Shown here piece by piece: positions 6,258 to 25,190 of a stretch of 64,000 nt of DNA (its first letter is position 1; every line of letters begins with the position of its first letter). This stretch comes from Candidatus Nitrosocosmicus oleophilus. Its GTDB lineage: Archaea > Thermoproteota > Nitrososphaeria > Nitrososphaerales > Nitrososphaeraceae. The stretch is taken from positions 372,001-436,000 of the forward strand of contig NZ_CP012850.1 of NCBI RefSeq assembly GCF_000802205.1, written 5' to 3'. The position numbers and the translations under genes were made by a program. The notes under the pieces are model-generated. The model was not told the DNA's origin. It searched no databases and was given only the letters and a program-made list of their open reading frames with translations.

Positions 6258-6725
6258 TTACTTTCCAATACAACAATTACCCTCAGGAATATGATATCCA
6301 TGTGGACAGATCTTGGGATGTTTTAACAGGGTGCATAGTGCATCGGTAAAAATTTCTTTCATATGATGTTCAATGCCACAAACCATCTCCTCATCTACAT
6401 CGATTTTTAAGGCATCTTTCATAAGTACTTCTAACAGTCGAGTGTTTCGTATCATTTTTTTCCCGATGTTCTCACCCTCTTTTGTAAGTGTCACTATGGA
6501 ACCCTTTTTATAATCAATTAAAAGAGAATCATTTAATTTATGAAGCATTTGAACCACTGATGGTTGTGTAACATTTAAAATTTTGGCTATGGAGCTAACC
6601 TTTAACTCTTGGCCACTCTCTGTAATAGACCACATTGCCTTCAAGTACATTTCGACATGCTCGGCTTCTGCGGTGCCTACATACAATTGCTCTGGGAGTC
6701 CAGAATTCTTTGAATAAACAGTCAA
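6258..6725 (-). CDS. DtxR-family metal-dependent transcriptional regulator
   Basis: 155 residues from an ATG. The N-terminal winged helix (about residues 20-85; KVSSIAKILNVTQPSVVQMLHKL is the recognition region) and the following dimerisation/metal-binding domain (MVCGIEHHMKEIFTDALCTLL, with CPHGYHIP near the C-terminus) match the DtxR/MntR/IdeR family. There is no C-terminal SH3-like domain, as in short archaeal and MntR-type members. It probably senses Fe(II) or Mn(II) and represses genes carrying TTAGG/CCTAA palindromes. Two such sites are in this window, upstream of the winged-helix gene at 6829-7191 and of the FTR1 permease at 12304-15057. I see no such site upstream of its own gene. Confidence 0.92.
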   Translation of the reverse strand: MTVYSKNSGLPEQLYVGTAEAEHVEMYLKAMWSITESGQELKVSSIAKILNVTQPSVVQMLHKLNDSLLIDYKKGSIVTLTKEGENIGKKMIRNTRLLEVLMKDALKIDVDEEMVCGIEHHMKEIFTDALCTLLKHPKICPHGYHIPEGNCCIGK

Positions 6726-6828: not shown

Positions 6829-7191
6829 TTATTGTGAGATAGAATAAGGTAAGTTTCGTTCGTTTTTCTTAAATTGTAAAAGGACTTGTTTTTTGTTCAA
6901 TATCAATTCGACTGATTGGATTTTACTTTTGTAAAAGACAACCTTTTTTCCTTTTTCATTTATCACAATTCTATCTATAAATAAGAGTCCAAGGTCCTTG
7001 AGTTTTTTTATTTTTTTGTATGTCGAGCTAATAGGCAGATCATTTTCTTTGCAAATTTCAAAAACGGTTTTGGAATCTTCGATGATAGACATTACAATCT
7101 TGTAAGAAAATCCATCAAACAATTCCTTCAATAAAATTGAAGCATTTTTATCTTCTTGATTCAGTAAATATCGCTGATCAGATAACATCAT
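6829..7191 (-). CDS. winged-helix transcriptional regulator, probable DtxR target
   Basis: 120 residues. A winged-helix fold is suggested by residues about 20-85 (LLKELFDGFSYKIVMSII, then VFEICKENDLPISSTYKKIKKLKDLGLL, then a basic wing). This resembles archaeal ArsR/MarR-like small regulators, but I cannot name the subfamily. Two ATGs stand in tandem (7191 and 7188). The first lies one base from a double palindromic operator, so the transcript must be leaderless or nearly so. The operator context suggests it is controlled by metal status through the adjacent DtxR-type protein, making a two-tier regulatory cascade. Confidence 0.78.
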   Translation of the reverse strand: MMLSDQRYLLNQEDKNASILLKELFDGFSYKIVMSIIEDSKTVFEICKENDLPISSTYKKIKKLKDLGLLFIDRIVINEKGKKVVFYKSKIQSVELILNKKQVLLQFKKNERNLPYSISQ

Positions 7192-7231
7192 TTAGGCTAC
7201 CCTAATTGTTAGGGCAACCTAATATTTAAAC
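7192..7231 (-). promoter_or_regulatory. double DtxR-like operator and TATA box of the winged-helix gene
   Basis: Two copies of a TTAGG-N4-CCTAA-like palindrome lie at 7192-7205 (TTAGGCTACCCTAA) and 7209-7222 (TTAGGGCAACCTAA), and together they form a larger imperfect palindrome. A TATA-like TTTAAATA (minus strand) is at about 7223-7231, roughly 35 bases before the ATG. The operator fills the space between TATA box and start codon, so a bound repressor would block transcription start. The half-sites match the TTAGG/CCTAA consensus known for DtxR/MntR operators. The rest of the gap to 7514 is AT-rich with nothing further recognised. Confidence 0.75.
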
Positions 7232-12303: not shown

Positions 12304-15057
12304 TTATCCTCCTTTTTGGACCTTTTTATCATTGTCGCTCACGGACTTTCTCATCGAGGCTATCTTTTTTTGTCGTCTAGGTTGAATAAACAGAATATAG
12401 AGAGACCCAACCAAATATATTGCAAGTAAGATGACTTGAGCCACTACTGTTTCTACCGTTGGGTGGATCCCAGTCATCGTTGCAACATTAATATCTAATC
12501 GAGGTACTATGTTATATATAGGAGTAGTAGAGATCCATCCAAGTTCCTGAAATTCACGTACTGCATTACCTAAAAAGGTTATCGACATAAAAGCTCCCAC
12601 TGCCATAGTAAGTCCAAACAAAACTCTTAGTGGTAACTTCCTTCCCAGTTTTCGAATTATGAATACAACTGCAATTATTACAGCCAGGCCCAATACTAAC
12701 CCGGCAAGTACGTATATCTCCATATATTTTGCAAAAGAAAATAGAGCTTGATAAAACAAGACTGTTTCAAATCCTTCCCTATACACTGTAAAGAAAGACA
12801 ACAAAACAAATACCATAAAACTGCCCGTAGTCGTTGCTTGCCAGACTTTGGCCTTAACAAATTCAATCCATTTCTTAGTTTCAATCTTGTTGAGAACCCA
12901 GAAGCTGACCCAGAAGAGTACAGCTACTGCAGCAATGCCAGCTATAGCCTCGATTAGGGCTCTTTGTACACCAGATATTTCTATTATAAATTGAGCAACA
13001 AACCATGTTACAGCAGTCAGTGCTATAGCAAGTACAATTCCAGCGTAAACATGCTTTTTGAACTTTTCATTTCGCGATGCCTCCAAGTATGTCAAAATGG
13101 CACCAAGTATCAAGGCAGCCTCCAAACCTTCTCTAAAAATAATTGAAAATGATGAAGAAAAGGCAATAGCAGGTGCAACTACCCCGATACCTGAAACAAA
13201 CCGTTCGGATTCATCTAAACCACTTTTAAGTTCCGTAATCTTGGAAACGATCTCATCAGGCGGGGCATTTGATGAAATGAGGTTGCGTAATTCAGCAAAT
13301 TTTATCTCCATTTCGAGAGTAAAATCTGGATCAATTGGTCTCAAGGGTATTTCAATATTTTCATAACTGTCAAGATATGCTGATCTAGCGGTTGCTAGTG
13401 CCTGAGAAGTATCATTTTGATTGTAGATAGATATTACCTCATCTAATTTAAGTCTGATTGAATCTATATCGTTACGAACCTGCCCCTTGAAATCTTCCGA
13501 GGCTTCGCCCATAGAACGCCTCTCCCCTGTGTAAACTCCAAACCCTTGTTTTAGAGAATCGATATTGGCAGTATTAGTAACAAAAGAAGATGGCAGGGTA
13601 AAATTATTGTTTGACTGTACAGTACTAGGGGTACTTAGCAACTGTTTGGAAACTTGTAGATCTTCTTTTATATTAGAAATGTAAGCTTCAATGTCAGCAA
13701 GCGGGGTTTGATTTTTGATTAAAGCACGCAGATTTTCCCTCATATTTGTTTCTATTTGCAACATTAAGGTGGAATTTACCTCCTCTATTGGGGCTTCAAG
13801 GTATTCAAAATTATCCAAATACGCAGAGGATACATTTTTGTCTGCAGCAAGATAATTACCATTTTGAATGGAGGAAATTGCATTATTTAGTAGAATCTCT
13901 ATGTTATCATAATATGTCTGGAGAGATGGATCAACGGCAGAAGATGTGTTATTTGTAGATCCCAACAACTGTTTGGAAACTTGTAGATCTTCTTTTATAT
14001 TAGAAATGTAAGCTTCAATGTCAGCAAGCGGGGTTTGATTTTTGATTAAAGCACGCAGATTTTCCCTCATATTTGTTTCTATTTGCAACATTAAGGTGGA
14101 ATTTACCTCCTCTATTGGGGCTTCAAGGTATTCAAAATTATCCAAATACGCAGAGGATACATTTTTGTCTGCAGCAAGATAATTACCATTTTGAATGGAG
14201 GAAATTGCATTATTTAGTAGAATCTCTATGTTATCATAATATGTCTGGAGAGATGGATCAACAGTGCTAGTTGTGCTTGGTATACGAATATTATTAGACT
14301 CATTCAGATCATTCTCTATTGCAGAGACTATTCTTGAAAACTCGGGTGTATTATCACTTTTGGAATCTATTATTGTATTCAAATTTGTGATAAAATATTC
14401 TATCTCTTTAGATTTTGTATCAGTCATATTCGGTTTTAATATTTCAAAAATTGTATTTGATTGATTTATCAACCCTTTTGTATTCTCATAATCGATCATG
14501 GCCAATTTTGCAACATCAGCGTCGGCAATTTTTGAAGTGTTCAAATATAACCCATATGAATTAGAAGCATCTCTTAGTAGATATGACATGGTTTGAGATT
14601 CAAGAATTGAAAAATCTTGTGCAGGAAGCGTATCTTTCAATTTTGAGTAAAAATCGTTGATTATGTTTTTGGAGTCGGTTATGTCTGCAAGAATAATAGG
14701 AGAATTTGGATCAGCACGAGATTGTATTCCGACTTCCGTAAGGTTTGCTTCTAAATTATTAGCCAATTCTTCATCAACTGCAATCGCAATAGGTTTAGTC
14801 GATGGATAAATTACAGAGTGGGGAATATAAGCATGTTCGAATATCAGAGAATTGTTATTATTATTTATTTTATTTAATAAGATATCAAGCTGTGTATCTA
14901 TTCTATTTAGATTAACATTCAAAAGCAATAGATCCTCATTTGATATTGCAGGATTTTTGGTAGAAGTAGAGTTTTGAGCTAGAACATTATTTACAGATGA
15001 AATTGATATATTTACGATCAACAATAGCAAGATAAAAGTTGCTAGTAGTTTTACCAC
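12304..15057 (-). CDS. FTR1-family iron permease with a large repeated extracellular region
   Basis: 917 residues from a GTG start with a GAGGT ribosome site 8 bases upstream. A signal peptide (residues about 3-27) is followed by some 600 extracellular residues and then a seven-helix FTR1 permease. The two REGxE iron-channel motifs, FREGLEAALILGAIL (near 640) and YREGFETVLFYQAL (near 755), are both present. The extracellular part has two tandem 99-residue units that are identical at DNA level and a third divergent unit (about 520-625, AYLDSYENIEIPL). These may act like EfeO or periplasmic iron-capture domains. The gene is much longer than an ordinary permease (about 280 residues). A DtxR-like operator overlaps its predicted transcription start, so iron repression is likely. 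Confidence 0.9.
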   Translation of the reverse strand: MVKLLATFILLLLIVNISISSVNNVLAQNSTSTKNPAISNEDLLLLNVNLNRIDTQLDILLNKINNNNNSLIFEHAYIPHSVIYPSTKPIAIAVDEELANNLEANLTEVGIQSRADPNSPIILADITDSKNIINDFYSKLKDTLPAQDFSILESQTMSYLLRDASNSYGLYLNTSKIADADVAKLAMIDYENTKGLINQSNTIFEILKPNMTDTKSKEIEYFITNLNTIIDSKSDNTPEFSRIVSAIENDLNESNNIRIPSTTSTVDPSLQTYYDNIEILLNNAISSIQNGNYLAADKNVSSAYLDNFEYLEAPIEEVNSTLMLQIETNMRENLRALIKNQTPLADIEAYISNIKEDLQVSKQLLGSTNNTSSAVDPSLQTYYDNIEILLNNAISSIQNGNYLAADKNVSSAYLDNFEYLEAPIEEVNSTLMLQIETNMRENLRALIKNQTPLADIEAYISNIKEDLQVSKQLLSTPSTVQSNNNFTLPSSFVTNTANIDSLKQGFGVYTGERRSMGEASEDFKGQVRNDIDSIRLKLDEVISIYNQNDTSQALATARSAYLDSYENIEIPLRPIDPDFTLEMEIKFAELRNLISSNAPPDEIVSKITELKSGLDESERFVSGIGVVAPAIAFSSSFSIIFREGLEAALILGAILTYLEASRNEKFKKHVYAGIVLAIALTAVTWFVAQFIIEISGVQRALIEAIAGIAAVAVLFWVSFWVLNKIETKKWIEFVKAKVWQATTTGSFMVFVLLSFFTVYREGFETVLFYQALFSFAKYMEIYVLAGLVLGLAVIIAVVFIIRKLGRKLPLRVLFGLTMAVGAFMSITFLGNAVREFQELGWISTTPIYNIVPRLDINVATMTGIHPTVETVVAQVILLAIYLVGSLYILFIQPRRQKKIASMRKSVSDNDKKVQKGG
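13639..13935 (-). repeat. internal tandem duplication in the iron permease, copy 2
   Basis: This 297-base block is identical by eye to 13966-14262, offset by 327 bases (109 codons). It encodes the 99-residue extracellular unit from VDPSLQTYYDNIE to EDLQVSKQLL. Only the short linkers differ. The perfect identity points to very recent duplication or ongoing gene conversion. Confidence 0.92.
13966..14262 (-). repeat. internal tandem duplication in the iron permease, copy 1
   Basis: First copy, in translation order, of the 297-base unit repeated at 13639-13935. The copies are joined by a linker (STNNTSSA) that differs from the preceding and following linkers. Confidence 0.92.
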
Positions 15058-15063
15058 ATTCTT

Positions 15064-15152
15064 TTACCTCGCTTGCAAGCGCTAAAAATTAGACACGGCG
15101 TCAACACTAATAACATTAGGCTTCCCTAATTTTGTTGGATATGCAATTTAAA
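15064..15152 (-). promoter_or_regulatory. DtxR-like iron box, TATA box and hairpin leader of the FTR1 permease
   Basis: The palindrome ATTAGG-CTTC-CCTAAT is at 15115-15130, and a TATA-like TTTAAATT is at about 15143-15151 on the minus strand. The predicted transcription start, about 26 bases from the TATA box, falls inside the palindrome. The half-sites match those before the winged-helix gene at 7192-7222. The 60-base leader contains a perfect 12-base palindrome CGCTTGCAAGCG (15070-15081) abutting the GAGGT ribosome site (15066-15070), which might affect translation. Regulation by the DtxR-type protein at 6258-6725 is inferred. Confidence 0.77.
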
Positions 15153-24334: not shown

Positions 24335-24404
24335 TTTTACGTTAGAGATACCTAAGAATATATTTGTAATAATTATAATAGAGAGAAGATAAATAAGGAT
24401 AGAT

Positions 24405-25190
24405 TTGGATAAAGATCTGAAATACATAGATCAAAGTAAAAACTTAATTAAGAATAGAACAGGCTATTCGATCTCAAAACTATTGGACTTTCTACAAATA
24501 GAATATAATTATGATAATGTTTTAAGTGATTCAAAATTAAATATAGATTTTAAGATCGGAGATAGATTCGTTAAAATAATTGAAAACGATACTGACATGA
24601 ATGAATTTAGAACCATTCAAGAAAGATTCCCATTTATAGATATGATTGCGATAGGGAGATCATCATACCTAGGCAAAATTGATGAGATGCAGAACATCTT
24701 CCTGTTTGACAAAGATAGCAAGCAGGTTGGTTCTATCTTTATCGAAGACCCATCACTATCATTTGATTATGCTCACATATTACCGCTGGTCGAAAAGTGT
24801 TCAATAATTCATGGTCATACATCTACTGTCATGGTAGAAATTATAGGGGAAATGAAAAATAATCTAGTGATCGACTTCTCAGAGGCTAAAAAATTAATAA
24901 AAGAAGCTTTGTATCAAATTGATCACAAATTCTTTATCAATAGAAAATATCTGAAGAAGGAAGATAAGGATCACTTTTTTATCGAATTTGATGGTCCAAA
25001 AGGATATTTTGATTTAAAAGTTCCAAAGTATACAACTTATCTTTTAGAAGGTGAGGCGACTGTAGAAAATCTTTCTACAGAAATCATAAGAATGCTGGCA
25101 GATAAAATGCCTGAGAATGTTCAGGCACTGGGTGTGTATATATACGAGGGAGTCAATAAAGGTGCCCATATTCTTTCTTATATCCGGTAA
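24405..25190 (+). CDS. 6-pyruvoyl-tetrahydropterin synthase/QueD-domain protein with extra N-terminal domain
   Basis: 261 residues from a TTG. The C-terminal 145 residues are a PTPS/QueD domain: zinc ligands His124 (SFDYAHIL), His136 and His138 with catalytic Cys132 (CSIIHGHT), the DFSEAKKLIKEAL stretch and YEGVNKGAHI near the end. The first 115 residues are an unrecognised mixed alpha/beta domain (FKIGDRFVKII, FPFIDMIAIG, NIFLFDKDSKQVGSIFIE). QueD makes 6-carboxy-tetrahydropterin on the way to preQ0 and archaeosine; PTPS-III enzymes act in folate synthesis. The N-terminal extension roughly doubles the usual size. It shares a promoter region (24335-24404) with the PP-loop gene. Confidence 0.85.
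   Translation: MDKDLKYIDQSKNLIKNRTGYSISKLLDFLQIEYNYDNVLSDSKLNIDFKIGDRFVKIIENDTDMNEFRTIQERFPFIDMIAIGRSSYLGKIDEMQNIFLFDKDSKQVGSIFIEDPSLSFDYAHILPLVEKCSIIHGHTSTVMVEIIGEMKNNLVIDFSEAKKLIKEALYQIDHKFFINRKYLKKEDKDHFFIEFDGPKGYFDLKVPKYTTYLLEGEATVENLSTEIIRMLADKMPENVQALGVYIYEGVNKGAHILSYIR

Follow-up and report, generated by a model that had tools for sequence, protein, structure and literature searches.

The inverted repeat TTAGGN4CCTAA very probably serves in Nitrososphaeria as the operator of a DtxR/IdeR-type repressor activated by ferrous iron, acting by the mechanism proposed below. It is found in the promoters of a gene for an FTR1-family iron permease and of a gene for a small winged-helix protein, and comparison with related genomes supports these two genes as co-regulated targets of the same DtxR/IdeR-type iron box. 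From the sites themselves, their conservation, the gene content around them, their promoter geometry and the metal-ligand residues of the candidate regulator, we strongly infer that the box works as an iron-responsive operator. The stretch analysed (hereafter the window) is 64 kb long and comprises positions 372001-436000 of a 3.43-Mb single-contig Candidatus Nitrosocosmicus genome.

Box sites and promoter geometry

The exact pattern TTAGGN4CCTAA occurs at three places in the window, which are listed here with the genes and promoter elements concerned.

6258-6725, minus strand: DtxR-family metalloregulator gene, candidate binder of the box (155 aa; PF01325 and PF02742)
6829-7191, minus strand: winged-helix (ArsR-like fold) regulator gene (120 aa, ATG at 7191)
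7192-7205, minus strand: winged-helix operator, ATG-proximal box TTAGGCTACCCTAA (exact; conserved; 17 bp from the other box)
7209-7222, minus strand: winged-helix operator, TATA-proximal box TTAGGGCAACCTAA (exact; conserved in 10 aligned promoters)
7223-7230, minus strand: TATA-like TTTAAATA of the winged-helix promoter (CGTTTAAATATTAGG invariant in 10 genomes)
12304-15057, minus strand: FTR1-family iron permease gene (917 aa, GTG start; Pfam PF03239, 66 bits)
15116-15129, minus strand: iron box TTAGGN4CCTAA of the FTR1 promoter (exact; invariant in 9 same-genus promoters, with diverged background and varying spacer)
15145-15152, minus strand: TATA-like TTTAAATT of the FTR1 promoter (AATGTTTAAATT invariant in 9 genomes)

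The initial annotation had placed a palindrome, ATTAGG-CTTC-CCTAAT, at the expected transcription start of the permease gene, two close relatives of it in the winged-helix promoter, and a DtxR-type gene nearby, and all three observations hold. The extended palindrome (ATTAGGCTTCCCTAAT) is exact at 15115-15130, 58 bp upstream of the FTR1 GTG and, measured from its core, 15 bp downstream of the TATA-like element; both relatives match TTAGGN4CCTAA exactly; and the DtxR-type product is matched by both Pfam domains of the family, PF01325 at the N-terminus (1.4e-12) and PF02742 at the C-terminus (2.4e-19). The tandem boxes occupy the whole gap between the TATA-like TTTAAATA and the winged-helix ATG, abutting both, and the distance from TATA to box is 8-23 nt in most of the promoters examined. 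With this geometry, a repressor bound at the FTR1 and winged-helix boxes would cover the archaeal transcription start.

Named relatives of the winged-helix gene come from Candidatus Nitrosocosmicus and Nitrososphaeraceae genomes. The tandem box is present in 14 of 15 same-genus genomes and, wherever the locus was read, lies directly upstream of the winged-helix ortholog. Ten aligned winged-helix promoters share the invariant core CGTTTAAATATTAGGN4CCTAAN3TTAGGN4CCTAAAT, while the N4 spacers and the upstream sequence vary; nine FTR1 promoters, each with a single box, likewise share AATGTTTAAATT...TTAGGN4CCTAATGT, with variable N4 and flanks. In other genera of the same family, some labelled Nitrososphaera, an abutting 28-bp tandem box precedes the winged-helix ortholog, and boxes also lie near further FTR1-like genes. 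In one same-genus genome (G011; loci L269 and L274) the FTR1 gene, the winged-helix gene and their boxes are absent together, and the DtxR gene and the flanking genes are kept, a natural double loss of FTR1 and the winged-helix gene. The tandem operator and this joint absence tie the winged-helix gene to iron uptake. The earlier suggestion that a second-tier regulator is among the targets is thereby borne out by comparative genomics to the extent that the winged-helix gene, co-regulated with FTR1, is a probable box-controlled second-tier regulator.

The AlphaFold2 model of the winged-helix protein, of moderate-to-good confidence (pLDDT 79), has an extra beta hairpin after the winged helix. Its best PDB folds are ArsR-type regulators, with no Foldseek match reaching 0.001, and its Pfam matches are all below cut-off. 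Two REG(L/F)E motifs lie in the membrane part of the permease, where residues 642-646 read REGLE and residues 760-764 read REGFE. The FTR1 gene also contains a nearly identical 305-bp direct repeat (13639-13943 and 13966-14270, period 327 bp) that duplicates part of the N-terminal region, and the length of its relatives ranges from about 808 to 938 aa. Just upstream of the FTR1 GAGGT and GTG lies a perfect palindrome, CGCTTGCAAGCG, at 15070-15081; one relative (G002) has another palindrome, CGCATATATGCG, in its place, and in more distant relatives it is not conserved. A one-mismatch box, TTAGAGATACCTAA, is found at 24342-24355 in the window, 49 bp upstream of a 261-aa reading frame (24405-25190, plus strand).

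The probable binder of the box

The box is probably bound by a DtxR-type repressor, with the winged-helix gene as a target, and the DtxR gene of the window is a candidate for encoding it. On alignment its product has EMY at residues 25-27 and C116-x-x-E119-H120, that is, the Met/Cys/Glu/His pattern of the iron type; the assignment of these ligand positions, and of Asp, Glu, Glu and His to the manganese type, is what we take to be established for the family. Of the three PF02742 matches in the genome, the comparison of ligands took in the window copy and an MntR-like paralog, which has Asp and Glu at those positions (the MntR pattern) and matches MntR structures at 4e-29. The window protein consists of two domains only, missing the SH3-like third domain, which is also absent in MntR and is therefore optional; it is also missing the ancillary-site histidine (RNTRLLE, versus RKHELL in the MntR-like paralog), a difference that is not decisive for family membership. 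Given its iron-type ligands versus the Asp and Glu of the paralog, the window DtxR is the better candidate for iron.

The box might instead be bound by a DtxR paralog encoded elsewhere, either the MntR-like protein or the third copy, and possibly respond to manganese or some other metal. We regard this as improbable, even though there are three PF02742 matches to choose from, one of them MntR-like by sequence, and though one relative (G035) has a ZIP transporter among its box targets: iron genes make up most of the targets (FTR1, FeoB, Suf, a FeoA fusion and ferritin-like neighbours), and the residue at the Cys/Glu switch is Cys in the window DtxR, in the box-adjacent relatives of the distant family f4 (genomes G033, G044 and G060) and in the FeoA fusion, as against Glu in the MntR-like paralog.

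Less probable still is that the winged-helix protein binds the box as its own operator; it would then be an autorepressor with tandem operators, controlling FTR1 as well, and with DtxR as a mere neighbour. Such an arrangement would account for a tandem box directly at the winged-helix ATG in all the same-genus orthologs that were read, and equally in other genera where no DtxR gene is adjacent, and for the genome that lost the winged-helix gene, FTR1 and the boxes together yet kept DtxR. It is hard to reconcile with family f4, in which boxes precede FeoB, FTR1 and DtxR genes, and no winged-helix gene is found there:

L107 and L111: tandem box preceding an FTR1 and DtxR operon
L108: tandem box preceding an FTR1-FtrD gene
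L109: three boxes before a DtxR-FeoA fusion, followed by FeoB
L110 and L112: tandem box preceding FeoB

Two of these genomes, G033 and G060, have tandem boxes and DtxR but zero match to the winged-helix protein, so that the winged-helix protein is not needed for the box, whereas DtxR is always there. The box sequence points the same way. A structural study of IdeR proposed that its single-dimer consensus be redefined as TTAGGNNNNCCTAA (PMC8464063), and the half-sites of the box, with their 4-bp spacing, are exactly this consensus, which argues against an autorepressor and for a DtxR-type repressor.

The likeness to the actinobacterial IdeR/DtxR regulon (TTAGGTTAGSCTAACCTAA operators; PMC8464063) takes in the TTAGG/CCTAA half-sites, the DtxR domains and the metal-ligand pattern. 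In the bacterial operators two interleaved dimers are set 5 bp apart within 19 bp (PMC8464063), whereas here 14-bp boxes occur singly or as tandem pairs spaced by 14 or 17 bp, beside archaeal TATA promoters, and the regulator of the window is without the SH3-like domain. The core of the system is of the DtxR/IdeR kind, and is set apart by its single or 14/17-bp tandem boxes, its winged-helix target and the box-driven RNAs described below. For archaea, Leyn and Rodionov reportedly described in 2015 the DtxR-family regulons FetR, MntR and ZntR, with palindromic sites in front of genes for metal transporters, FeoAB and ZIP among them; to our knowledge, winged-helix and RNA targets were not among them.

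Predicted targets across the genome and its relatives

Seven exact sites were found in the genome and are listed here; one-mismatch sites number 85.

Sites 1 and 2: winged-helix gene promoter (tandem)
Site 3: FTR1 promoter
Site 4 (L001): immediately upstream of an operon that encodes a 322-aa unknown protein together with a multicopper oxidase
Site 5 (L002): in the intergenic region that separates the iron-sulfur-cluster gene SufBD from a 2-hydroxyacid dehydrogenase gene
Site 6 (L004): promoter of a conserved intergenic RNA
Site 7 (L003): within a reading frame of 66 aa close to a transposase, likely background

The initial annotation had proposed a genome-wide search of promoters for the palindrome, taking a lack of enrichment at metal-related promoters as refutation. 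On this test six of the seven sites, all but L003, lie in promoters (FTR1, winged-helix, multicopper oxidase, SufBD and RNA) that have counterparts in same-genus genomes. A bulk enrichment of the palindrome had to be rejected, control palindromes being equally or more frequent: against 7 exact sites there are 12 for the reversed pattern and 7 for a palindrome of the same composition, TTGAGN4CTCAA. The idea of an autonomous regulon contained in one window was also not sustained, since the targets are spread genome-wide and include an RNA gene outside it. As the number of sites matches that of the controls, signal and background are told apart by location and conservation. Three of the seven sites fall within 8 kb, for which P is about 0.0006 under random placement.

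This agreement in number with control palindromes is what would be seen if the boxes were functionless chance palindromes in A+T-rich promoters, a reading whose probability we consider negligible in view of the three exact matches in the window against a mean expectation of 0.067 per 64 kb (maximum 2 in 150 first-order Markov simulations), of half-sites and TATA elements that do not vary between genomes as spacers and flanks do, and of a tandem pattern present in 32 of 300 genomes, when its reversed control matches none of the genomes listed. A scan of the window allowing two mismatches was uninformative (26 sites versus 32 expected). Most of the exact sites that fall within reading frames of the relatives (L155, L158, L162, L165, L168, L174, L185 and L186) lack a conserved counterpart and were set aside as background.

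Across several lineages the box is found at promoters or operons of FTR1, FeoB, DtxR, SufBD, multicopper oxidase and ZIP genes. The SufBD/2-hydroxyacid dehydrogenase box is kept in 7 genomes, with differing spacers, and that of the multicopper-oxidase operon was found in 2. The SufBD box is 99 bp from the SufBD start and 65 bp from the start of the 2-hydroxyacid dehydrogenase gene and, as these genes are divergent, the controlled direction could be either. At three further loci (L266:2499-3032, L272:1967-3129 and L270:696-1250) imperfect or exact boxes precede a conserved pair of small-protein genes (about 65 and 90 aa), which in other genera adjoins a ferritin-like gene; no such small-protein/ferritin operon lies at the syntenic place in the genome of the window.

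The following mechanism is proposed. When iron is sufficient, Fe2+-loaded DtxR dimers would occupy one or two 14-bp boxes between the TATA element and the transcription or translation start, and so block recruitment of RNA polymerase at the FTR1, winged-helix, multicopper-oxidase operon, Suf and RNA promoters. When iron drops, the repressor would leave, and FTR1, the multicopper-oxidase operon, the Suf genes, the winged-helix regulator and the RNA would be expressed. The multicopper oxidase is perhaps a ferroxidase supplying Fe3+ to FTR1, as in the Fet3/FTR1 system; the likeness is that an FTR1 permease and a multicopper oxidase come under one type of box, and the difference that the genes are unlinked here and the oxidase is a putative ferroxidase. 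The RNA could curb the synthesis of proteins that use iron. In many soils nitrification is dominated by ammonia-oxidising archaea, whose metal regulation is hardly described in the literature that we found. The regulon predicted here is specified down to its exact operators, its promoter geometry and its individual targets, in genera that are in culture, which makes it directly testable.

Box-driven RNA candidates

Three types of apparently non-coding RNA in Nitrosocosmicus and Nitrososphaera, new here, are predicted to be driven by the box. Type A is an intergenic element of about 235 nt (L004:2001-2240, plus strand; G000:C1:2335400-2335640) with the box at its promoter, where a TATA-like GTTTATAT is followed by the box and then by the conserved stretch. 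It is present in 9 of 15 same-genus (Nitrosocosmicus-group) genomes, with an exact box in the promoter of all nine, and is a candidate iron-starvation sRNA. Type B occurs in 2-4 copies per genome in G008-G010 (L175, L176, L179, L180, L181, L183 and L184); each of seven aligned copies has its own box and nearly all have a 3' hairpin, AAAGGAGTGAAT/ATTCACTCCTTT. A DNA search with type B matched only three related genomes. Type C is a short RNA of Nitrososphaera, lying behind tandem or single boxes in G061, G089, G093, G096 and G165:

L115:4432-4570, plus strand: type C copy
L119, L122 and L129, minus strand: type C copies
L267 and L268: type C copies

It carries a GGCATCTACC motif, and its layout is GGCATCTACCA..., then mostly a GC-rich hairpin, and finally a pyrimidine-rich or T-rich tract. 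The hairpin, for example CCCGCCCAG/CTGGGCGGG, differs in sequence between genomes and its pairing is kept. The copy in G093 has an exposed C-rich AUCACCUCC before the hairpin, which G061 does not have and which we take to equal the anti-Shine-Dalgarno sequence.

The box-driven RNAs show frame-breaking indels and 3' hairpins, and whole-RNA folding z-scores are unremarkable in types A and B. A search of the RNA loci against Rfam gave no family at gathering score for the element, and one tRNA-like match elsewhere in L176. That the element is a leader or a tiny-protein gene, not an sRNA, is unlikely but not remote. Most type A copies have an open AUG frame of 20 codons, M[SAT]YLQTNTRLENLEVVERV, and in five genomes a gene of one and the same family is found a few hundred bases away from the box; but longer frames are broken by indels of 1, 2, 7 and 14 nt, the type B copies are without the frame, the copies occur at different genomic places, and the 3' hairpins carry T-rich tracts. 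With the 20-codon frame uninterrupted in the majority of type A copies, the RNA may have a dual function.

It is tempting to suggest that small RNAs and repressor together make up an iron-sparing circuit in soil ammonia-oxidising archaea (Nitrosocosmicus and Nitrososphaera), in which an IdeR-like repressor would control iron uptake, a winged-helix second tier and the small RNAs A, B and C, these lowering iron-protein synthesis, possibly via exposed C-rich anti-Shine-Dalgarno stretches; we would give this proposal a little short of an even chance. We know of no iron-sparing RNA of such a kind from an archaeon, and a literature search found no archaeal sRNA controlled by an iron repressor, which is weak evidence of absence. 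In bacteria, RyhB, FsrA, MrsI and IsrR are sRNAs controlled by iron repressors (PMC9410917), and the box-driven RNAs are candidate archaeal counterparts of RyhB, FsrA and MrsI. The likeness is that of a small RNA gene with iron-repressor boxes at promoter and start (PMC9410917), and the C-rich motif through which FsrA acts on Shine-Dalgarno sequences has a parallel in the exposed C-rich AUCACCUCC of one type C copy. The differences are that the promoter here is archaeal, and that the archaeal elements have no sequence relation to the bacterial RNAs and no Rfam match. If they are indeed iron-starvation sRNAs, the repressor-plus-sRNA design of Fur/IdeR bacteria would exist in archaea too. The sequence CCAAATCC is common to types A and B.
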